From Allomuricauda sp. (GTDB lineage Bacteria > Bacteroidota > Bacteroidia > Flavobacteriales > Flavobacteriaceae): a stretch of DNA of 64,000 bases. The stretch covers positions 310,001 through 374,000 of the forward strand of contig NZ_JACESV010000001.1 of the NCBI RefSeq assembly GCF_013911645.1, given 5' to 3'. The translations under genes were made by a program, and so were the position numbers. Below the pieces are notes generated by a model. That model had not been told where the DNA came from, did not search any database, and was given only the letters and a program-made list of their open reading frames with translations. This document shows, piece after piece, positions 50,819-61,773 of the stretch; the first letter of the stretch is position 1; each line of letters begins with the position of its first letter.

Positions 50819-51634
50819 ATGGATAAATTACCTAAAATTGCATTGCCTGCTTTAGCAGGAATTATTTTTCTTATCATTTTCGCGTCAAGGTCTACCGTAA
50901 CTATTGGTTCTGGTGAGGCTGGGGTGCTGTACAAATATTTTGGTGGAGGTGTTGTTACCGACGAACCGCCTTTGGGAGAAGGTTTTCACTTGGTGGCCCC
51001 ATGGAACAAAGTGTTTATCTATGAAGTACGCCAGCAAGAAAAACTGGAAAAAATGAACGTACTCTCTTCCAACGGATTGGATATAAAACTGGAAGCTTCT
51101 GTTTGGTTTCAGCCAAAATCTGAAGATCTTGGAAAACTGCACCAAGAAAAAGGGGAACAGTATATAGAACGTGTGCTATTGCCTGCAATTCGTTCGGCAG
51201 CCCGTAGCGTGGTTGGGCGATATACACCGGAACAATTGTACTCAAGTAAGCGAGATGCAATTCAACAGGAGATTTTTGAGGAAACGCAAAAAATTGTGGA
51301 CGACCAATACGTTCAATTAAATGAAGTACTGGTGCGCGATGTTACATTACCTCCCACTATTAAAGATGCCATTGAACGTAAATTAAGGCAAGAACAAGAA
51401 TCGCTGGAATATGAGTTTCGATTGGTGACAGCTTCGAAAGAAGCTGAAAAGGTTCGTATTGAAGCACAAGGAAAAGCAGATGCCAACCGAATACTCAGCG
51501 CTTCCTTAACGGATAAAATATTACAGGACAAGGGTATAGACGCCACATTAAAACTCGCAGAATCACCCAATGCAAAAGTAGTTGTAGTAGGGTCGGGAGA
51601 TGATGGTTTGCCATTAATTTTGGGAAATAACTAA
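50819..51634 (+). CDS. prohibitin-like SPFH/Band 7 protein
   Basis: A 271-residue prohibitin family protein. An N-terminal membrane segment (about 5-22, IALPALAGIIFLIIFA) is followed by the SPFH domain (VTIGSGEAGVLYKYFGGGVV, GEGFHLVAPWNKVFIYEVRQ, LDIKLEASVWFQP, VVGRYTPEQLYSSKRDAIQQ). A coiled coil comes next (KLRQEQESLEYEFRLVTASK). Such proteins form rings that organise membrane domains and restrain FtsH-type proteases. Twelve bases after the VWA gene. Confidence 0.92.
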   Translation: MDKLPKIALPALAGIIFLIIFASRSTVTIGSGEAGVLYKYFGGGVVTDEPPLGEGFHLVAPWNKVFIYEVRQQEKLEKMNVLSSNGLDIKLEASVWFQPKSEDLGKLHQEKGEQYIERVLLPAIRSAARSVVGRYTPEQLYSSKRDAIQQEIFEETQKIVDDQYVQLNEVLVRDVTLPPTIKDAIERKLRQEQESLEYEFRLVTASKEAEKVRIEAQGKADANRILSASLTDKILQDKGIDATLKLAESPNAKVVVVGSGDDGLPLILGNN

Positions 51635-51644
51635 TTTTCTCTTT

Positions 51645-51672
51645 TTTGATATAAAAATATATCCTACTTTTG
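51645..51672 (+). promoter_or_regulatory. promoter of the his operon
   Basis: TTTG (51645-51648), 16 bases, TACTTTTG (51665-51672). The -7 box ends seven bases before the leader-peptide ATG, so the transcript would begin almost at the ATG. Confidence 0.6.
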
Positions 51673-51679
51673 GAGCATA

Positions 51680-51733
51680 ATGAGAAACAAAAACACACAT
51701 CATCATTTTTATACTTGCCCTCAAGCGAGATAG
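51680..51733 (+). CDS. hisL: his operon leader peptide
   Basis: A 17-codon frame, MRNKNTHHHFYTCPQAR, ending in TAG at 51731-51733. Three consecutive CAT (His) codons lie at 51698-51706. It stands between the his promoter and a perfect terminator hairpin, 101 bases before hisG. A run of His codons at this place is the signature of ribosome-mediated attenuation, so the peptide itself need not have a function. No sequence similarity to the E. coli leader is implied; the shared feature is the His run. Confidence 0.8.
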   Translation: MRNKNTHHHFYTCPQAR

Positions 51734-51797
51734 AAATGTATTGTTGTTTTTAAAATATATTCTAACCCGTTTGAGAAATCAAACGGGTTTATTTTTT
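51698..51797 (+). promoter_or_regulatory. his attenuator
   Basis: Terminator: arms AACCCGTTTGA (51764-51774) and TCAAACGGGTT (51779-51789), 11 perfect pairs, loop GAAA, then TATTTTTTG. Antiterminator: TCAAGCG (51721-51727, in the last leader codons) pairs with CGTTTGA (51768-51774) of the left arm, seven pairs with one G-U. A ribosome held at the His codons leaves 51721-51727 free. A ribosome at the TAG covers it and lets the terminator form. Confidence 0.75.
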
Positions 51798-51833
51798 GTA
51801 CCCCTTTGGTTTTTCGGACAAAACGATTGAAAA

Positions 51834-52691
51834 ATGACAAAAATTAGAATTGCTGTTCAAAAAAGTGGCCGTTTAAACGAGGATTCCCTCAAAATCTTAA
51901 AGGATTGTGGAATTTCCATCGACAACGGAAAAGACCAGTTAAAAGCCACCTCCCGAAATTTTCCCTTGGAAGTATTTTATTTACGGAACGGGGACATCCC
52001 CCAATATTTGAGGGATGGAGTAGTGGACATCGCCATCATCGGGGAAAACGTACTCATTGAAAAAGGAAAAGATATTTCCATTGCGGAGCGATTGGGTTTT
52101 TCCAAATGTCGTGTATCCTTGGCAGTCCCAAAAAATGAGACCTACAATTCCATTACGGATTTTGAAGGTAAAAAAATAGCAACATCCTACCCGAATACGG
52201 TAAAGGACTACTTGGCATCTAAAGGGGTTACGGCCGACCTGCACATTATCAATGGTTCTGTAGAAATTGCCCCAAATATTGGTTTGGCTTACGGTATCTG
52301 TGACATTGTTTCGAGCGGAAGCACACTTTTTAAAAACAATTTGAAAGAGGTGGAAGTAATGCTGAAAAGCGAGGCAGTTCTCGCAGTATCGCCCACCATC
52401 TCCGAAGAACGCAAAGAACTGTTGAAAAAAATCCAGTTCAGGATTAAATCGGTATTGCAGGCGCGCCAGAACAAATATGTGTTGATGAATGCACCGAATG
52501 ATAAATTGGATGAAATTATTTCCATTCTCCCCGGAATGCGAAGCCCCACGGTTTTGCCCTTGGCCGAAGAAGGATGGAGCTCGGTGCATACGGTAATCAA
52601 CCGGGAAACCTTTTGGGAAGTCATCGATGAATTGAAAGAGGCCGGAGCCGAAGGAATTTTGGTTTGTCCTATTGAAAAAATGGTACTATAA
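51834..52691 (+). CDS. hisG: ATP phosphoribosyltransferase HisG, long form
   Basis: A 285-residue HisG with the C-terminal regulatory domain, thus the long HisZ-independent form. It opens MTKIRIAVQKSGRLNEDSLK and carries VDIAIIGENVLIEKGKDISI and GLAYGICDIVSSGSTLFKNN, the PRPP-binding part. The C-terminal domain contains KYVLMNAPNDKLDEIISILP and the typical histidine-sensing region. It condenses ATP and PRPP, the committed step of histidine synthesis, and is feedback-inhibited by histidine in relatives. Its stop overlaps the hisD ATG by one base. Confidence 0.96.
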   Translation: MTKIRIAVQKSGRLNEDSLKILKDCGISIDNGKDQLKATSRNFPLEVFYLRNGDIPQYLRDGVVDIAIIGENVLIEKGKDISIAERLGFSKCRVSLAVPKNETYNSITDFEGKKIATSYPNTVKDYLASKGVTADLHIINGSVEIAPNIGLAYGICDIVSSGSTLFKNNLKEVEVMLKSEAVLAVSPTISEERKELLKKIQFRIKSVLQARQNKYVLMNAPNDKLDEIISILPGMRSPTVLPLAEEGWSSVHTVINRETFWEVIDELKEAGAEGILVCPIEKMVL

Positions 52692-53980
52692 TGCAGCGTA
52701 TCAATTATCCACAGCAAAGTGATTGGGCCGAAATATTAAAACGACCCACGCAAACTGTTGCCGATATTGAAGAAATTGTCAACAGTATTTTCAAAGAGGT
52801 TAAATCTGATGGGGACGCCGTTATAAAAAAGTATACAGACCGGTTTGACCAAGTGAAATTGGATGCACTTTCGGTATCTGCTTCAGAAATTGAAATAGCT
52901 GGTGATGCCGTTTCAGACGCCCTAAAACAAGCCATTAACCTGGCAAAGGTCAATATCGAAAAATTCCATGCTGCCCAAAAAACTTCCAAAGTTGAAGTAG
53001 AAACCATGCCCGGCGTAAAATGCTGGCAAGAAAAACGCCCCATACAAAAAGTGGGGTTGTACATACCCGGTGGAACAGCTCCCTTATTTTCAACCATTTT
53101 AATGTTGGCAATTCCCGCTAAACTGGCAGGATGTGAAGAAATTGTGCTCTGCACCCCGCCCGATAAAAAAGGTGAAATCAATCCAGCGATTTTATACACG
53201 GCCCAACTTTGTGGTGTAACACGGATTTTTAAAGTTGGCGGTATTCAAGCCATTGCTGGAATGACCTTTGGTACGGAGAGCATTCCAAAAGTGTACAAAA
53301 TTTTTGGACCAGGAAATCAATATGTCACGGTAGCGAAACAATTGGCCACCAGGCACAATGTTGCCATCGATATGCCTGCGGGACCAAGTGAGCTTTTGGT
53401 GGTTGCGGATGATTCAGCAAACGCAGCTTTTGTAGCTTCGGATTTGTTAAGCCAAGCCGAACACGGGGTGGATAGTCAGGTAATTTTGGTATCCACTTCA
53501 GAAAAATTGATTGAGGCGGTTGAAGAGGAAATCGAAAGTCAGTTACAGCAATTGCCTAGAGCGGAAATAGCTCGCAAATCAATTGGCAACAGCAAATTGA
53601 TTTTGGTGAAGAATGACCAAGAAGCTATGGATTTGATCAACGAATATGGCCCGGAACACTTTATTGTTTGTATGGAGAATGAAGCGTTTTACCTTGAAAA
53701 AATTCAGAATGCAGGCTCCGTTTTTATTGGCAATTATACGCCCGAGAGTGCAGGTGATTACGCTTCGGGCACCAATCATACGTTACCAACAAACGGTTAT
53801 GCCAAACAATACAGCGGGGTGAATCTGGATAGTTTTATGAAGAGCATGACTTTTCAAAAAATATCCGAAAAGGGAATCCAAGGCATCGGAAGTGCCATAG
53901 AGCTTATGGCGGATGCTGAGGGATTACAGGCGCACAAAAATGCGGTAACCTTAAGATTAAAAAGTTTGAATAAAGATTAA
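52691..53980 (+). CDS. hisD: histidinol dehydrogenase HisD
   Basis: A 429-residue zinc enzyme that oxidises histidinol to histidine in two NAD steps. It contains PIQKVGLYIPGGTAPLFSTI, TFGTESIPKVYKIFGPGNQY, DMPAGPSELLVVADDSANAA, LLSQAEHGVDSQVIL and NHTLPTNGYAKQYSGVNLDS. The last holds a catalytic His region. Length is standard. Its ATG overlaps the hisG stop, and its own stop runs into a short palindromic repeat ahead of hisC. Confidence 0.96.
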   Translation: MQRINYPQQSDWAEILKRPTQTVADIEEIVNSIFKEVKSDGDAVIKKYTDRFDQVKLDALSVSASEIEIAGDAVSDALKQAINLAKVNIEKFHAAQKTSKVEVETMPGVKCWQEKRPIQKVGLYIPGGTAPLFSTILMLAIPAKLAGCEEIVLCTPPDKKGEINPAILYTAQLCGVTRIFKVGGIQAIAGMTFGTESIPKVYKIFGPGNQYVTVAKQLATRHNVAIDMPAGPSELLVVADDSANAAFVASDLLSQAEHGVDSQVILVSTSEKLIEAVEEEIESQLQQLPRAEIARKSIGNSKLILVKNDQEAMDLINEYGPEHFIVCMENEAFYLEKIQNAGSVFIGNYTPESAGDYASGTNHTLPTNGYAKQYSGVNLDSFMKSMTFQKISEKGIQGIGSAIELMADAEGLQAHKNAVTLRLKSLNKD

Positions 53981-53981
53981 T

Positions 53982-54005
53982 GTCAGGTCGAGCGCAGTCG
54001 AGACC
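53982..54005. repeat. palindromic repeat at the hisD-hisC junction
   Basis: A GTCAGGTCGAGCGCAGTCGA core followed by GACC, in which GGTC.CGA and TCGAGACC are nearly inverted. It shares the GTCA-TCGA core with the repeats at 47819 and 56205. It begins two bases after the hisD stop and lies in the same frame as hisC. Confidence 0.65.
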
Positions 54006-54012
54006 AAATGCT

Positions 54013-55062
54013 ATGCAAAAAACATTTGACATAAATAATATAGTTCGGGAATCGGTTCGCAAGTTGCAACCCTATTCCTCCGCACGTGACGAATATGTAT
54101 CCGATGGCTCGGAAATGATATTTCTGGATGCCAACGAAAACCCTTTTGACAATGGAGTAAACCGCTACCCAGACCCGTATCAACGAAGTTTAAAATCACT
54201 TTTGGCCGAACAAAAAGGGGTATCGGAAAGCCAAATTTTACTTGGAAACGGAAGTGACGAAGTTTTAGATTTGATTTACAGGGCTTTTTGTGAACCTAAT
54301 CAGGATAATATCATCACATTACCGCCCACTTACGGAATGTACAAGGTGTTGGCGGGGATTAATTCCGTGGAGAACAAAGAAGTTTTGTTGACTACTGATT
54401 TTCAGCCGAATGTTAATGAAATTATAGAGGCAGTCGACACAAACACCAAGCTTCTCTTTATTTGTTCACCCAACAATCCTACCGGAAATTCTTTTAAAAA
54501 AGAAGGAATTGAAAAGTTATTGGAAGCATTCAATGGATTAGTGGTAATCGACGAAGCATATATTGATTTTTCAAAAGATGAAAGTTGGTTGTCACAACTT
54601 AAAACATATCCCAACTTGATTGTGACCCAAACGCTATCCAAAGCCTATGGATTGGCAGGTATCCGATTGGGGATATGCTATGCATCGGAAGAAATAATAG
54701 GTATTTTGAACAAAATCAAACCTCCCTACAATGTCAATCAATTGACCCAGCAACGAGCATTACAGCGTGTATTGAATCAAGATTTGGTCGATCAAGAGGT
54801 ACAGCAGATTCTTGATGAAAGAGATGGATTAATCAAAGCATTGAACAGTATGAAATTTGTAGAACAACTATATCCATCCGACGCTAATTTTGTGTTGGCC
54901 AAAGTTGATAATGCCGATAAGCGTTATCAACAATTATTGGAAAAACATGTGGTAGTGCGCAATAGGAGTACGCAGCCATTGTGCGAAAACACCTTACGGT
55001 TTACCGTGGGTACACCAGAGGAAAACAAAAAATTGATAGCCATTTTAAAAGCGTTAAGGTAA
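54013..55062 (+). CDS. hisC: histidinol-phosphate aminotransferase HisC
   Basis: A 349-residue fold-type I PLP aminotransferase. It contains [80 protein letters not shown] and the PLP-Lys block [20 protein letters not shown]. It forms histidinol phosphate. The frame is also open from the ATG at 53980, which overlaps the hisD stop. That would add 11 residues encoded by the palindromic repeat, so the ATG at 54013 is preferred. Its stop overlaps the hisB ATG. Confidence 0.93.
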
Positions 55063-56198
55063 TGGGCAAAAAAGTATTGTTTATTGATCGAGATGGAACC
55101 ATCATCAAAGAACCAGCTGATGAACAGATTGATGCTTTTGAGAAGTTGTTTTTTTACCCCAAAGCATTTACTTATTTGGCGAAAATCGCCAAAGAACTGG
55201 ACTACGAACTGGTAATGATTACCAATCAAGATGGACTGGGAACAGATGTTTTTCCAGAAGAGACCTTTTGGCCCGTGCAAAATTTTATTTTAAAAACCTT
55301 TGAAAATGAAGGAGTGGTTTTTGAAGCAGTCCATATCGATCGAACCTTTGCAAAGGACAATGCCCCGACACGCAAACCGGGCACAGGAATGTTGACCACG
55401 TATTTTTCCGAAGCATATGATCTCGAGAATTCGTTCGTGATAGGTGACCGTTTAACCGATGTGGAACTTGCGAAAAACCTTGGTGCCAAAGGAATTTTTA
55501 TCAATGATGAAACCCATTTGGGAACAGATGAAATTACCGTAAAACGTGAAGAACTGGACGATTACATCGCTCTGGAAAGCAATGATTGGGAAAAAATCTA
55601 TGAGTTTCTCAAATTGGAAAACAGGATTGCGGAAATATCCCGAAAAACCAATGAAACCGACATTAAAATCAAGATAAACCTTGATGGTAACGGAAAGAGT
55701 GACATTAATACAGGTTTGGCTTTTTTCGACCACATGTTGGACCAATTGGCGCGTCACGGTCAAATGGATTTGGAAATAAAAGTAGATGGCGATTTGGAAG
55801 TAGATGAACACCACACCATCGAAGATACCGCTATCGCACTGGGAGAGTTGTTTTCCAAGGCATTGGGCAACAAACTGGGAATTGAACGCTATGGTTTTGC
55901 TTTGCCCATGGATGATTGTCTGGCACAGGTTGCCATAGATTTTGGGGGGCGGAACTGGCTGGTTTGGGACACCGAATTTAAACGTGAAAAAGTAGGGGAT
56001 ATGCCCACGGAAATGTTTATGCACTTTTTTAAATCGTTCACCGATGGCGCCAAGGCCAATTTGAACATTAAAGCCGAAGGCACCAACGAACATCATAAAA
56101 TCGAGGCGATTTTCAAGGCTTTTGCCAAATCCATTAAAATGGCGGTAAAGCGAGATGCGGAAAAAATGGTGTTGCCTTCTACGAAGGGAATGTTGTAA
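55062..56198 (+). CDS. hisB: bifunctional histidinol phosphatase / IGP dehydratase HisB
   Basis: A 378-residue fusion. Residues 1-165 are a HAD histidinol-phosphate phosphatase ([12 protein letters not shown] with Asp9 and Asp11, [47 protein letters not shown]). From about residue 195 it is imidazoleglycerol-phosphate dehydratase ([60 protein letters not shown]). An upstream ATG in the hisC region is ignored, because the start at 55062 overlaps the hisC TAA in a coupled TAATG. Confidence 0.95.
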
Positions 56199-56204
56199 AA
56201 AGTG

Positions 56205-56262
56205 TCATTTCGAAGGAGCTTGCGACTGAGAAATCTAGATTTCTCGCTATGCTCGAAATGAC
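56205..56262. repeat. 58-bp palindromic element between hisB and hisH
   Basis: Ends GTCATTTCGA (56205-56214) and TCGAAATGAC (56253-56262) are perfect inverted repeats. Inside is an 18-bp perfect palindrome GAGAAATCTAGATTTCTC (56228-56245). It fills most of the hisB-hisH gap. In RNA it would form a strong branched hairpin. Confidence 0.8.
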
Positions 56263-56279
56263 AAAAAGACAAGAAATAA

Positions 56280-56864
56280 ATGAATATAGTCATAATTGAT
56301 TACGGAGCAGGAAATATCCAGAGCATCATGTTTGCTATTAAACGCCTTGGTTATGAGGCTGTTTTAAGCCATGATGCAGAAGAAATCCAAAATGCAGATA
56401 AGGTGATATTCCCTGGTGTTGGAGAAGCGAGTTCGGCTATGGCAAAGTTGAAAGCCACAGGGTTGGACAAGGTGATTCCTACATTAAAACAACCCGTTCT
56501 GGGGATTTGTTTGGGTATGCAGTTGATGTGCCATTCATCCGAAGAAGGAAATACCGAAGGTTTGGGAATCTTTGATTTGGATGTGATAAAATTTTCCAGA
56601 AATGTTAAAGTCCCACAAATTGGGTGGAACCAAATTTCAGGTTTAAAAAGTAAGCTATTTACTAATATTCCAGAGAAATCATACATCTATTTGGTACACA
56701 GTTTTTATGCCCCGATCGGGAAAGAAACCATTGCAACTTCGGAATATGAACTAACTTACAGTGCCGCTTTGCAAAAGGATAATTTTTACGGAGTGCAATT
56801 TCACCCCGAAAAGAGCAGTGATGTGGGCAGTGAAATCCTGAAAAACTTTTTAACACTTACCTGA
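56280..56864 (+). CDS. hisH: imidazole glycerol phosphate synthase glutaminase HisH
   Basis: A 194-residue class I glutamine amidotransferase. It opens MNIVIIDYGAGNIQSIMFAI. The nucleophile Cys77 is in PVLGICLGMQLM, and the His/Glu pair lies in GVQFHPEKSSDVG. With HisF it supplies ammonia to form imidazole glycerol phosphate and AICAR. Two bases before a GNAT gene. Confidence 0.96.
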   Translation: MNIVIIDYGAGNIQSIMFAIKRLGYEAVLSHDAEEIQNADKVIFPGVGEASSAMAKLKATGLDKVIPTLKQPVLGICLGMQLMCHSSEEGNTEGLGIFDLDVIKFSRNVKVPQIGWNQISGLKSKLFTNIPEKSYIYLVHSFYAPIGKETIATSEYELTYSAALQKDNFYGVQFHPEKSSDVGSEILKNFLTLT

Positions 56865-56866
56865 TT

Positions 56867-57283
56867 ATGGAATTCCAAATATCAACAGACAAGAATAGGT
56901 TGGATATCCAAAAGGTGCACAAAGAAGTTGGATTGACCTATTGGGGAAAGGGCAGGAGTATGGAAGAAACAATAATGACGATTGAAAAAAGTATCTGCTT
57001 TGGCATGTACGATGAAAAAGGGGAACAAATGGCTTATGCCCGAATAATAACCGACGGACTGGTTTTTGCCTACATTATGGATGTTGTTGTCTTTGACCCC
57101 AATAAAAGAAAGGGATTAGGTAAAAAATTGATACAACATATTTTGGACCGCTCAGATGTAAAAAAAGTCAATACTGTGGCATTCAAAACCATCGACGCAC
57201 ATCACTTTTATGAAAATTTGGGCTTTAAAAGGATAGGGGATTCGGAAATGTGGATGTCCATAGACCGAGTAAAATACGATTAG
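56867..57283 (+). CDS. GNAT acetyltransferase inside the his operon
   Basis: A 138-residue acetyltransferase of the GNAT fold. The acetyl-CoA pyrophosphate loop is in VVVFDPNKRKGLGKKLIQHI, preceded by the strand AYARIITDGLVFAYIMDV, and the end FYENLGFKRIGDSEMWMSID is the usual GNAT closing segment. Its gaps to hisH (2 bases) and hisA (3 bases) place it firmly on the his message. It has no known place in histidine synthesis. A role on a small molecule, peptide or antibiotic is possible. Confidence 0.88.
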   Translation: MEFQISTDKNRLDIQKVHKEVGLTYWGKGRSMEETIMTIEKSICFGMYDEKGEQMAYARIITDGLVFAYIMDVVVFDPNKRKGLGKKLIQHILDRSDVKKVNTVAFKTIDAHHFYENLGFKRIGDSEMWMSIDRVKYD

Positions 57284-57286
57284 AAA

Positions 57287-58015
57287 ATGAGATTGATTCC
57301 AGCAATAGACATCATTGAAGGGAAATGTGTACGCCTTTCCAAAGGAGATTACAACACCAAAAAGGTGTATAACGAAAGTCCGTTAGAGGTGGCCAAGGCG
57401 TTCGAGGCCCATGGTATCCAATATTTACATTTGGTGGATTTGGATGGTGCAAAATCCAAGCATATCGTTAACCATAAAGTTTTGGAGACCATCGCATCAA
57501 AAACCAACTTACAAATAGATTTTGGGGGAGGATTAAAAACTGACAAAGATTTACTCATTGCTTTTGAAAGTGGTGCCCATCAAATTACTGGCGGAAGTAT
57601 TGCCGTAAAAGACCAAGAAACTTTTTTAAGTTGGTTGCAAAATTTTGGTGCAAATAAAATCATTTTAGGCGCTGATGCCAATAACGAAAAAATTGCAGTT
57701 TCAGGTTGGCAAGAAGAATCTGAACAAGAATTGTTACCTTTTATTCAGTTTTACCAAAAAGCAGGTATTGTGTACGTAATCTGCACGGATATTAGCAAAG
57801 ATGGCATGTTGCAAGGCCCTGCTTTTGAACTCTATAAAAAGATATTGGACAATACTTCCAATATTAAATTAATCGCTAGTGGAGGTATTTCTTCATTTGA
57901 TGAGTTGCCAAAACTTGCTGAAATTGGTTGTGATGGCACCATTATAGGAAAGGCCATTTATGAAAACAGGATCAGTTTAAAACAATTGGAACATTACATT
58001 CTCCAAAATGGATAA
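57287..58015 (+). CDS. hisA: ProFAR isomerase HisA
   Basis: A 242-residue TIM barrel. The opening [20 protein letters not shown] holds the catalytic Asp8, and the second Asp is in [20 protein letters not shown]. The phosphate-binding [20 protein letters not shown] is near the end. It isomerises ProFAR to PRFAR. Its end overlaps a DinB gene by eight bases. Confidence 0.96.
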
Positions 58016-58526
58016 GGAAAAACAACTCCAAGAAGAATTGGTTTGGAATGCGGGGTATCGCATGAACGAAAGTCTTCGCATGATCAAAATCTGCTTAGAG
58101 CAATTGTCGGAAGATGAAATCTGGCAAAAACCCAACAAGTCTAGCAATAGTATTGGGAACCTCATACTTCATCTCTGCGGAAACATTACCCAATACGGTA
58201 TTGCTTCCATTCAAAATTTGGAGGATTCCCGCCAACGCGATGAAGAATTCTCAACAGTATCGGGATACACGAAAGCAGAGTTGGTCAAAAAACTTGAGGA
58301 TACCATATCCGATGCAAAAAGGGCATTTTACGATGCTCCGCTCAACGAACTTTTACGTAAAAGAAACGTACAGGGCTTTAATTTTTCTGGTGTGGGCAAC
58401 ATTATTCATGTAACGGAGCATTTGTCTTATCACACAGGTCAAATAGCACTTTGGACAAAGATTTTGCAGAATAAAGATTTGGGGTTTTATGGAGACGTAG
58501 ACCTGAATATAAAGAATGAAAGCTAG
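58008..58526 (+). CDS. DinB family protein inside the his operon
   Basis: A 172-residue DinB superfamily four-helix bundle. Metal-ligand-type His occur in [14 protein letters not shown] and in [15 protein letters not shown]. It shares eight bases with hisA, so it is on the his message. No link to histidine synthesis is known. It is distinct from the DinB protein at 30623. Confidence 0.82.
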
Positions 58527-58543
58527 AGTTGGATATATAGCCG

Positions 58544-58870
58544 ATGAACTGGATACTATTGATAATTGCCGGATTCTTTGAAGTAGCCTTTGCAGCTTGT
58601 CTGGGAAAGGCCAAAGAAACGACCGGGACCGAAACCACTTATTGGTATATAGGATTTGCAGTTTGCCTGGCAATTAGTATGCTTTTGCTCGTAAAAGCCA
58701 CACAAGAATTGCCAATAGGCACGGCTTATGCGGTTTGGACCGGAATTGGTGCAGTAGGAACGGTGTTAATAGGAATTTTTGTCTTTAAAGAACCGGCAAC
58801 ATTTTGGAGACTATTTTTTATTACCACATTAATTGCTTCAATTATTGGTTTGAAAGTAGTCTCACATTAA
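58544..58870 (+). CDS. SMR family small multidrug/guanidinium exporter
   Basis: A 108-residue four-helix SMR protein. The functional Glu13 is in LLIIAGFFEVAFAACLGKAK, and the SugE/Gdx signature is LPIGTAYAVWTGIGAVGTVL. Gdx proteins export guanidinium in exchange for protons; others export quaternary cations. The GTAYAVWTGIG stretch fits SugE/Gdx but does not settle the substrate. It lies between DinB and hisF in the his operon. Confidence 0.9.
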   Translation: MNWILLIIAGFFEVAFAACLGKAKETTGTETTYWYIGFAVCLAISMLLLVKATQELPIGTAYAVWTGIGAVGTVLIGIFVFKEPATFWRLFFITTLIASIIGLKVVSH

Positions 58871-58908
58871 AAATAAACGTAAAATTCAGTAAGACGAAAG
58901 AAAAATAA

Positions 58909-59664
58909 ATGCTTACAAAAAGAATAATTCCCTGTCTCGATATTAAAAACGGGAGAACCGTAAAAGGCATCAACTTTGTGGACCTACGTGATGCGGGAGA
59001 CCCCGTGGAACTAGCGTCCATTTATGCCAAAGAAGGCGCTGATGAATTGGTTTTTTTGGACATTTCCGCCACCGAAGAGAAGCGAAAGACCTTGGCCGAA
59101 CTGGTGTATCATGTAGCTGAGACCATCAATATACCTTTTACCGTGGGGGGTGGGATTTCTTCCGTGGAAGATGTGGATGTTTTGCTGAAAAATGGCGCAG
59201 ATAAGGTTTCTATCAACTCATCAGCGGTAAAACGGCCCGAATTGATCAACGAATTGATGGCCAAATTCGGCTCGCAATGTATCGTTGTGGCTATTGATGC
59301 CAAGCAAATCAACGGACAATGGAAAGTCCATTTGGTAGGAGGAAAGGTCCCCACAGAAATTGACCTATTTGAATGGGCCAAAGAAGTGGAAGAACGGGGA
59401 GCGGGAGAAATTCTGTTCACTTCCATGGACCATGATGGCACCAAAAATGGGTTTGCCAACAAAGCTTTGGCAAAACTCTCGGAATTGGTTAATATTCCTG
59501 TGATTGCATCAGGTGGAGCGGGTACCATTTCACACTTTACCGATACATTTAAGAATGGAAAAGCAGATGCCGCTTTGGCTGCCAGTGTTTTTCATTTTAA
59601 GGAAATTGAAATCAATAAACTGAAAAAAGAATTAAGGGAAAAAGGAATTCCTGTGAGAGTATAA
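58909..59664 (+). CDS. hisF: imidazole glycerol phosphate synthase cyclase HisF
   Basis: A 251-residue TIM barrel. Catalytic Asp11 is in [19 protein letters not shown], and the second Asp is in [12 protein letters not shown]. The barrel ends with [20 protein letters not shown] and [20 protein letters not shown]. Works with HisH on PRFAR. Confidence 0.96.
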
Positions 59665-59668
59665 AATC

Positions 59669-59718
59669 CACATCTCGACGCTCCTTCCACTACGCTCAGG
59701 AAGACAGCTCGATGTGAC
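59669..59718. repeat. palindromic repeat between hisF and hisIE
   Basis: Ends CACATCTCGA (59669-59678) and TCGATGTGAC (59709-59718) are imperfect inverted repeats, with an inner CTTCC/GGAAG pair. Same core type as the other copies. Confidence 0.65.
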
Positions 59719-59905
59719 AAGCACAAAAAACATAAACTAAACACAATGAATTGAATCAATGGGTTTTGAAAAGCAATGGAATTGCAAACTGTTATTAAGT
59801 TATTCAGTTACTTAGACAGTATACTTTAATAACTCAATAATCCATAACCCAATAACTCTTATGATGATATTTGTAAAAACCGAAAGTCTTGCACTAAAGT
59901 GCATA

Positions 59906-59928
59906 CCTACCTGCCGGCAAGGCAGGGT
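59906..59928. repeat. CTGCCGGCA palindrome related to the 136-bp element centre
   Basis: ACCTGCCGGCAAGGCAGG resembles the 22-bp palindrome at 47855-47876 with one base inserted. The 285-bp gap between hisF and hisIE holds this, the repeat at 59669 and AT-rich DNA; nothing else is recognised. Confidence 0.55.
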
Positions 59929-59949
59929 TTCAACTAACGATTGTGACCA

Positions 59950-60546
59950 ATGAAAATAGACTTCAATAAAAATTCAGACGGACTAATTCCAGCAATTATT
60001 CAAGATGCAACCACCAAAAACGTGTTGATGCTGGGTTATATGAACCAAGAGGCGTTTGAAAAAACCCAAGAGACCAAAAAAGTGACATTCTTCAGCCGTT
60101 CCAAGCAACGATTATGGACCAAAGGCGAAGAAAGCGGCAACTTTTTGAATCTTGTGGGCATCCAAGTGGATTGCGACAACGATACGTTGCTGGTAAAGGT
60201 GAATCCCGTTGGTCCCACTTGCCACAAAGGGACCGACACCTGTTGGGCCGAAGAAAATGTTCAAGATTATGGCTTTTTGTCCACTTTGGAAGGTGTTATC
60301 GAATCCAGAAAAAATAATCAAGAAAATCCAGATAGCTACGTGGCTTCATTGTTTCGAAATGGTATCAACAAAATAGCACAAAAAGTAGGGGAGGAGGCTG
60401 TGGAAACCGTTATTGAGGCCAAAGATGACAACGAGGACCTTTTCCTGAACGAGAGTGCCGATTTACTGTTTCACTACCTTATTTTGTTGCAGGCCAAAGG
60501 CTACACTTTGGACGATATTGCCCAAGTACTGGAAAAACGTCATTAA
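59950..60546 (+). CDS. hisIE: bifunctional phosphoribosyl-AMP cyclohydrolase / ATP pyrophosphatase HisIE
   Basis: A 198-residue fusion. The HisI part (1-105) has MLGYMNQEAFEKTQETKKVT, FFSRSKQRLWTKGEESGNFL and the zinc-binding GPTCHKGTDTCW. The HisE part carries GINKIAQKVGEEAVETVIEA and ADLLFHYLILLQAKG. It performs steps two and three of histidine synthesis. It is separated from hisF by a 285-base repeat-containing gap, which may weaken or interrupt cotranscription. Confidence 0.95.
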   Translation: MKIDFNKNSDGLIPAIIQDATTKNVLMLGYMNQEAFEKTQETKKVTFFSRSKQRLWTKGEESGNFLNLVGIQVDCDNDTLLVKVNPVGPTCHKGTDTCWAEENVQDYGFLSTLEGVIESRKNNQENPDSYVASLFRNGINKIAQKVGEEAVETVIEAKDDNEDLFLNESADLLFHYLILLQAKGYTLDDIAQVLEKRH

Positions 60547-60609
60547 ACAAATCCGTTAAGTTTTTTCTAAAGCCCTAGTCGTTACAGCGAAATGCCGTAA
60601 ATTTATGTA

Positions 60610-61773
60610 ATGGCTATGAACACAAGAAAAGGGTTTCGTTTTACCAACTACGAAGCTCCGGACCAAACCCCGTTCGAAAAACTCTTTGAGATTTTTCAGG
60701 AACTCGTTACCCATACCTCAGGTGATGTGGAGGAGGCTTTGGATTGGCTCCGTGAGCTGGACAAGGAATACGAACTTACCGACGACGATTACACCATTGA
60801 CGATTTTATAGAAGACCTTAAGGCCAAGGGGTACATCCGTGAGGAATTTGATATGGATGGGCCACAAGGTGGCGAAGGTGAAGAGAGCGACGAAAATGGT
60901 GGCGGGGGAAACCTCTCCATCACAGCTAAGCTGGAACGCATGCTACGTCAACGGGCCTTGGACCAAATTTTTGGCAAAATCAAACGAAGCGGCTCGGGAA
61001 ACCATAAAACAGGCAAGTCAGGAAAAGGCGATGAGCATACGGGTGAGTTCCGTGAATACCGTTTTGGGGATTCATTGGAGCACATCAGCATGACGGAAAG
61101 CCTTAAAAATGCCCAAGTGAATCATGGATTGGACAATTTTTCCTTGAGTGAAGAGGATTTGGTCGTGGAAGATACACAGCACAAAGCCCAAATGAGCACT
61201 GTACTTATGATTGACATCAGCCACAGTATGATTCTTTATGGTGAAGACCGTATTACACCTGCCAAGAAAGTAGCAATGGCATTGGCCGAGTTCATTACCA
61301 CACGATATCCAAAGGATACACTTGACATTTTGGTATTCGGAAACGATGCCTGGCCTATTCCCATCAAGGATTTGCCTTATTTACGAGTAGGGCCATACCA
61401 CACCAATACGGTGGCCGGACTTCAATTGGCGATGGACATGCTCCGTAGAAAACGGAACACCAATAAACAGATTTTTATGATAACCGACGGAAAACCATCT
61501 TGTTTGCGGCTTCCGAACGGTGATTATTATAAGAACAGTGTGGGATTGGACGATTACATTGTTGAAAAATGCTACGCCATGGCCCAACAGGCCAGAAAAC
61601 TTCATATCCCCATAACCACTTTTATGATTGCCGAAGACCCTTATTTAATGCAGTTTGTGCGTGAATTTACCAAAGCCAACAAAGGGAAGGCCTTTTACAC
61701 TGGCCTTAAAGGTTTGGGCGAAATGATTTTTGAAGATTACGAGCAAAACAGAAAAAGACGAATTAAAGGATAA
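60610..61773 (+). CDS. VWA domain protein, partner of the MoxR-like ATPase
   Basis: A 387-residue soluble protein. The N-terminal half is acidic, with a Gly-rich linker (residues 84-101). The VWA domain runs from about 190, with MIDAS motif Asp202-Ser204-Ser206 in LMIDISHSMILYGEDRITPA and TDGKPSCLRLPNGD later. It is followed by an AAA+ ATPase gene nine bases downstream, the usual pairing of VWA and MoxR/chelatase-type ATPases that act together on a client complex. The client is unknown. An alternative start is Met3 (60616). Confidence 0.88.
   Translation: MAMNTRKGFRFTNYEAPDQTPFEKLFEIFQELVTHTSGDVEEALDWLRELDKEYELTDDDYTIDDFIEDLKAKGYIREEFDMDGPQGGEGEESDENGGGGNLSITAKLERMLRQRALDQIFGKIKRSGSGNHKTGKSGKGDEHTGEFREYRFGDSLEHISMTESLKNAQVNHGLDNFSLSEEDLVVEDTQHKAQMSTVLMIDISHSMILYGEDRITPAKKVAMALAEFITTRYPKDTLDILVFGNDAWPIPIKDLPYLRVGPYHTNTVAGLQLAMDMLRRKRNTNKQIFMITDGKPSCLRLPNGDYYKNSVGLDDYIVEKCYAMAQQARKLHIPITTFMIAEDPYLMQFVREFTKANKGKAFYTGLKGLGEMIFEDYEQNRKRRIKG

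Follow-up and report, generated by a model that had tools for sequence, protein, structure and literature searches.

The histidine operon of enterobacteria is preceded by an attenuator with a six-segment arrangement and seven His codons. The trp leader (trpL) is a three-hairpin attenuator with 1:2, 2:3 and 3:4 pairing logic, and its sensing codons lie inside or beside arm 1. Such ribosome-controlled attenuation requires a ribosome that closely trails the RNA polymerase. A general description of his attenuators is available, in which novel Firmicutes candidates from the Bacillus cereus group, Eubacteriales and Erysipelotrichales are presented and cases from Proteobacteria are also treated (PMC9413887). 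In 2010, leader-peptide systems had been shown, to the knowledge of the authors of that work, only in Proteobacteria and Actinobacteria before their own Firmicutes case (PMC2965389). Among flavobacteria, "strong clues" to attenuation by leader peptides in front of amino-acid biosynthesis operons were reported for Flavobacterium psychrophilum (PMC9723704). The available text of a survey of the his genes of the Bacteroidota superphylum names no attenuator or regulator (PMC8305728). A Bacteroidota his attenuator was not described among the literature matches listed, which are mostly non-subscription; the survey of Lopatovskaya et al. (2010) lies outside this scope.

Here, a stretch of 64,000 nucleotides, called the window, was analysed. 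Its HisG is up to 98% identical to HisG of an Allomuricauda MAG. The his operon of this marine Allomuricauda-like flavobacterium seems to be headed by a control stretch that reads the histidine supply through the translation of a tiny peptide with three His codons. We put the probability that this stretch is a ribosome-controlled transcription attenuator sensing charged tRNA-His at about 0.9, as judged from the sequences of the window and its relatives.

The his leader and its conservation in Flavobacteriaceae

The features of the locus are as follows.
51646-51648, + strand: TTG, possible -33 element (read directly; reference pattern TTTG near -33 and TAnnTTTG at -7)
51665-51672, + strand: -7 box TACTTTTG, full TAnnTTTG (read directly)
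51680-51733, + strand: leader ORF MRNKNTHHHFYTCPQAR and stop, 17 codons, ATG at 51680 and TAG at 51731-51733
51689-51699, + strand: S1, 5' arm of the predicted first hairpin, reaching from the preceding codons into the His run; partner 51742-51751 (folding, permutation tests)
51698-51706, + strand: three consecutive His codons (CAT), the putative sensing codons (read directly; conserved in Flavobacteriaceae)
51704-51718, + strand: P, second part of the 5' arm, from the third His codon onward, pairs with 51725-51738
51720-51727, + strand: S2, CTCAAGCG, antiterminator 5' arm, pairs with CGTTTGAG at 51768-51775
51730-51751, + strand: S3, segment after S2, first-hairpin 3' arm; alternatively pairs with 51752-51763 in a small hairpin within the antiterminator
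51764-51775, + strand: S4, terminator left arm, of which CGTTTGAG (51768-51775) is the antiterminator 3' arm (read directly; folding; conservation)
51779-51797, + strand: S5, terminator right arm TCAAACGGGTT and U-rich tract (read directly)
51834-52691, + strand: hisG, ATP phosphoribosyltransferase with C-terminal domain (TIGR00070, TIGR03455)
52691-60546, + strand: remainder of the his cluster, with hisD, hisC, bifunctional hisB, hisH, a GNAT-like ORF and hisA
within 52691-60546, + strand: 3' part of the cluster, with a DUF1572/DinB-like ORF, an SMR-type ORF, a hisF-like gene and hisIE

The leader occupies a gap of 199 bp between a gene with a weak HflK/HflC match, which ends at 51634, and hisG at 51834. 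An earlier note on this DNA had placed a his operon downstream of an attenuator, and the presence of the operon was borne out by the his gene matches from 51834 to 60546. The amino acid that would be sensed is the product of the downstream operon. The ORF at 58909-59664 matched the His_biosynth family, and its position among the genes suggests that it is hisF. Three further ORFs lie within the cluster: a GNAT-like one (56867-57283), a DUF1572/DinB-like one (58008-58526) and an SMR-type one (58544-58870).

The -33/-7 promoter noticed earlier could be read directly at the -7 box, and the TTG supplies a possible -33 element; in F. johnsoniae, a -33 motif was not found, according to the text available (PMC7366714). 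By its letters the promoter is of sigma-A type. Since the sigma-A box of F. psychrophilum occupies positions -12 to -5 (PMC9723704), the same placement of the box at 51665-51672 predicts a transcript start near 51677. Therefore, the leader mRNA probably has a 5' UTR of 3 nt. Leaderless mRNAs make up only 5.5% in F. psychrophilum (PMC9723704). The best-scoring box is situated 7-8 nt 5' of the leader ATG in 104 of 191 family rows, with further groups of rows at 17-21 or 27-35 nt; at least L049 and L092 were scored at a longer distance despite a nearer box.

The 17-codon leader with its three consecutive His codons was confirmed by direct reading. A short ORF with HisHisHis followed by a terminator within about 110 nt occurs once in the window, at the his leader, and appeared once across 100 dinucleotide shuffles of the window. 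The terminator consists of AACCCGTTTGA (51764-51774), GAAA and TCAAACGGGTT (51779-51789), followed by TATTTTTT to 51797. The perfect 11-bp stem and the U-run, which the earlier note had claimed, are thus present as described, and hisG begins 36 bases past the terminator instead of the 37 given there. Seven terminator-like sites are present in 51500-61000, a count no higher than chance gives (10.3 ± 3.5 in shuffles), and the stem of 11 pairs is the longest of them.

Conservation of the His run and the terminator was borne out in the family. Among 204 hisG upstream regions of Flavobacteriaceae, repeats included, a script found a His-run leader together with a terminator of the CCCGTTTGA type in 193. 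After parsing, the 204 rows comprised 80 named contigs (four of them labelled only Bacteroidia or Bacteroidetes), 110 family genomes, the window's own locus and 13 plus-strand loci. The 110 genomes, namely 30 loci and 80 fetched ones, were taken among 251 with HisG and include the window's own genome. Minus-strand matches, 14 of the 27 loci L193-L219, were left out. The rows hold repeats, because the own genome occurs twice and several genomes are in both collections or were fetched twice, and they represent 167-170 distinct segments. Nine of the eleven rows that the script did not parse show the leader by eye, and two are at contig ends (L069, L163). Four of the nine have two adjacent His codons in the leader (L050, L090, L117, L176) and five have altered terminators (L150, L153, L159, L179, L206). 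The terminator of L206 is degraded, and the right arm in L163 matches only partly at the contig end. In L150, L153 and L159 the letters differ in the terminator arm as well as in the antiterminator arm (CCTGATA type).

The design of the leader is regular in the family. Its length is 12-19 codons, with 17 or 18 in 175 of 193 rows, and exactly six codons including ATG precede the first His in 183 of 193 leaders. Furthermore, of 190 rows measured, 182 have S2 at a distance of exactly 13 nt from the last His codon, and this holds for runs of three and of four codons alike. This fixed spacing is as expected for a ribosome ruler, in which a ribosome halted at the final His codon would leave S2 free.

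Complementary segments and the predicted switch

S2 can compete with S5 for the left arm of the terminator and sits where a stalled ribosome would leave it free. The pairing of 51721-51727 with 51768-51774 proposed in the earlier note holds, and its length of 7 bp has to be corrected to 8 bp (51720-51727 with 51768-51775). At least seven of the eight S2:S4 pairs can form in 187 of 193 relatives, with S2 picked by likeness to the S2 consensus, and in 116 of 10,036 upstream background windows. The six remaining relatives (L073, L075, L078, L126, L133, L140) have only 5-6 pairs.

Since the letters of S2:S4 hardly vary within Flavobacteriaceae, a test between families is stronger. It was carried out with 32 sequences in 12 groups: 26 genomes from outside the family and six from within it, three of the latter being representatives and three having a different terminator. 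The mean energy with the own partners was -13.4 kcal/mol, compared with -9.15 ± 0.48 kcal/mol for permuted partners, and none of 5000 permutations was as good. When one sequence per group was taken (12 groups, 200 draws with 500 permutations each, L244 left out), no permutation reached the observed mean, and a decoy-segment control gave p 0.95. Examples of own S2/S4 pairs are GGTAGGCC/GGCTTACC, CAGGTAG/CTACCTG and AGACGG/CCGTCT. In L150, L153 and L244 the own pairing is no better than that with the partners of other genomes; among L150, L153 and L159, the pairing energy stands out only in L159. Across families, the antiterminator segment suits its own terminator better than those of other genomes. 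Covariation inside Flavobacteriaceae, which the earlier note had named as a check, was not found: the arm is nearly invariant there, and a tree-aware test detected none for S2:S4.

These data bear on whether the RNA or the peptide is the active element. A nascent His-rich peptide might act through peptide-dependent stalling or metal binding rather than through the supply of tRNA-His, and the tail of the peptide is indeed conserved in Flavobacteriaceae, with QAR in 107 and QAS in 35 of 193 leaders. However, 154 distinct peptides occur among these 193. In five relatives (L042, L047, L048, L093, L096) the leader stops three codons earlier, at a TAG inside S2 and before QAR, and the S2 letters are kept nevertheless, which indicates that the RNA and not the peptide tail is conserved. 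In other families the tails differ, yet the complementarity of the segment to the local terminator arm persists. We consider an action of the peptide itself very unlikely, and the sensing of charged tRNA-His by a translating ribosome is preferred.

The RNA of the leader is strongly folded. The energy of 51677-51797 is -35.3 kcal/mol and that of shuffles is -14.6 ± 3.2 kcal/mol (z -6.5; none of 200 as good). A long hairpin is predicted at 51689-51751, with S2 in its loop and 3' side. The small CTTG/CAAG hairpin, which the earlier note had supposed to hide S2, is predicted in a modified form: it folds better as CUUGC/GCGAG (51714-51718 with 51725-51729) and forms the tip of the long hairpin. Across families, S1:S3 gave -7.38 with the own partner and -5.85 ± 0.37 when permuted (0 of 2000), and the pairing of the protector P was reached in 2 of 3000 permutations (mean p 0.011 with one sequence per group); L244 was left out of both tests.

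Within the family, a plain permutation was indecisive for S1:S3, as the His-codon control also beat 2000 of 2000 permutations. When ranked against the segments of non-relatives, S1:S3 reached 0.33 and the controls 0.48 to 0.56, the His-codon control being at chance. In a tree-simulated null at the level of helices, S1:S3 was reached in 2 of 60 simulations, and S2:S4, the protector and the S3 hairpin were not significant. Column covariation, calculated with 142 anchored Flavobacteriaceae leaders and a tree-simulated null, gave no S1:S3 column pair with E < 1. The best column pairs consistent with the model had E 0.85 to 2.5. Column covariation was not used as a proof of the model. The two top column pairs (E 0.03 and 0.05) lie outside it, and pairing in the first falls below expectation. 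The tests support the first hairpin between families and modestly within Flavobacteriaceae, where the tree-aware test was weakly passed. A pseudoknot of S1:S3 with S2:S4 was considered and dropped, because S1:S3 nests around the protector. For the ATGTATTG after the stop codon, pairing with the His-codon side is an explanation at least as good as a putative RNA polymerase pause site.

The folding model was used with ribosome positions masked. These values are equilibrium values with assumed ribosome footprints, and show consistency rather than kinetics. With the His codons masked and the RNA made to 51778, the probability of S2:S4 was 1.00. With the stop-codon region masked, it was 0.00 before S5, and the terminator reached 0.98 once complete. 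The geometry described earlier, in which a ribosome stalled at the His codons frees the antiterminator and one at the stop codon covers it, is consistent with these two values. Without a mask, S2:S4 had 0.53 before S5, so the first hairpin alone would be no firm lock in the window sequence. After synthesis of S5, every masking case favours the terminator at equilibrium; in the full leader with masked His codons it had 0.91-0.92, and S2:S4 had 0.00. Therefore, antitermination must be kinetic, and readthrough would depend on the antiterminator giving way slowly.

That a strong terminator wins the equilibrium whatever the mask would also suit a constitutive partial terminator without histidine sensing, where the leader ORF merely insulates hisG. 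Such an arrangement leaves the conserved His run, the 13-nt spacing from His to S2 and the matched antiterminators unexplained, and we regard it as highly improbable. The attenuator that we favour would operate as follows. First, a ribosome would begin to translate the leader ORF almost immediately after the 5' end has emerged. When charged tRNA-His is scarce, it would stall on the His codons and cover the 5' arm of the first hairpin. S2 would be left free just past its front edge and could pair with S4 before S5 exists; the terminator would then come too late, and hisG onward would be transcribed. When histidine is plentiful, the ribosome would move to the stop codon and cover S2, S4 would pair with S5, and transcription would end near 51797. 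On a leader that carries no ribosome, S1 and P would pair with S2/S3 in the first hairpin and so hide S2, again favouring termination.

Leaders in other families and other operons

Forty non-family genomes were chosen by hand from the HisG matches listed, with a spread over family labels and without genomes whose HisG match is weak (families f12, f13, f17, f28 and f30, for example). A His-rich leader, defined as a short ORF upstream of hisG with at least three His in six codons, was found in 37 of the 40; shuffles had one in 33 of 800 cases and reverse strands in 1 of 40. The antiterminator test was entered by 26 of them. The other 14 comprise nine in which no terminator was found and five without a His run at the right distance from the terminator. 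Of 25 non-family genomes, 20 have an interval of 10-19 nt between the His run and the start of S2; it is 3-7 nt in the exceptions (L220-L223 and L248). The earlier note had placed the antiterminator inside the leader frame. This is true in the window and is not constant outside the family, where the stop codon comes before, within or after S2 and the peptide tail differs. The comparison suggests that further families of Bacteroidota use a switch of this kind.

His-rich hisG leaders mostly without a recognisable intrinsic terminator were seen in families f3, f23, f8 and f9 (L244-L247, L258, L259, L229, L231, L241), and several of them have a hairpin that spans the stop codon together with the last His codons. 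Some of these genomes would fit a leader that acts mainly on the translation of hisG or via Rho rather than by intrinsic termination. For the window, where a terminator stands between leader and hisG, and for the 193 of 204 Flavobacteriaceae rows with the same order, we likewise rate this mode as very unlikely, and transcription attenuation is retained. In L248 and L252, which belong to families outside the class (f34 and f38), leaders and terminators are near the Flavobacteriaceae letters (CTCAGGCG, CCCGTCTGAG; CTCAGACG, CCCGTCTAAG). A transfer of the operon together with its leader is possible from this likeness.

Leaders of this type were also noticed elsewhere in the window's own genome. 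A trpE leader MINGTVNIWWWTNLRRMS (WWW) with a terminator is found in L261 (contig C5, 967-1086 and 1135-1459), and an ORF of 94 aa with a GIY-YIG match (PF01541) lies between its terminator and trpE. The ilvD gene has a Val/Ile-rich leader and a terminator, the PDT gene has the leader FYFYFFF and a terminator, and a thrA-like gene has the leader TITITTTT, for which a terminator was not found (L260, L265 on the reverse strand and L266 at 773 form the ilvD, PDT and thrA-like set). The genome seems to use such leaders at trp, ilv, phe and perhaps thr genes, as far as their sequences tell. A motif shared with the other operons was rejected: CTCARGCGAG has two matches in the own genome, one of them at the his leader, and the terminator pattern was found only at the his leader. 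The other leaders of the genome are thus without these letters.

Comparison with known systems

Searches with Rfam 15 gave no match at the gathering score in the window or in 17 relatives, with the T-box and the his leader (RF00514, which we take to be the Rfam his leader family) included. When the search was extended to E 10, 31 scattered matches appeared, all below the gathering scores, and the his leader and T-box were not among them. The leader is a candidate for a new Rfam family. It is also a candidate regulator for the his pathway of Bacteroidota, for which the available text of PMC8305728 names none.

Bacteroidota are said to lack or not to recognise Shine-Dalgarno signals (PMC6847099, PMC9976891, in the text available). 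There is perhaps an even chance that the phylum possesses an old and widely kept his attenuator which works without Shine-Dalgarno initiation, with an almost leaderless mRNA in the Muricauda-Maribacter group. If true, a ribosome ruler fixed at 13 nt would mean that ribosome and RNA polymerase are tightly coupled in this phylum. By title, no paper among the matches listed settles such coupling in Bacteroidota. His attenuators in many Bacteroidota would offer a simple reporter for coupling in the phylum.

The kind of mechanism is classic, and its distribution across Bacteroidota was not found described in the literature searched. The closest report in terms of lineage concerns F. psychrophilum, which belongs to the same bacterial family as the window; the word histidine is absent from the main text of PMC9723704, and a his entry in its Table S7 is possible. 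The candidates of the Bacillus cereus group, Eubacteriales and Erysipelotrichales are similar in having a leader with three to five His codons and a terminator with an antiterminator before his operons. However, they belong to a different phylum, and Bacteroidetes or Bacteroidota are not named in the main text of PMC9413887. Like the window, hisL of E. coli and Salmonella has a leader with His codons and alternative antiterminator and terminator structures before hisG, with the his operon downstream. In contrast to hisL, the window has three hairpins (first hairpin, antiterminator and terminator) instead of six segments, the flavobacterial leaders carry three or four His codons instead of seven, and the 5' UTR is probably only 3 nt long. 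In its 1:2, 2:3 and 3:4 logic, and with sensing codons in or beside arm 1, the leader resembles trpL. It differs from trpL in that histidine would be sensed and segment 2 overlaps the end of the reading frame.
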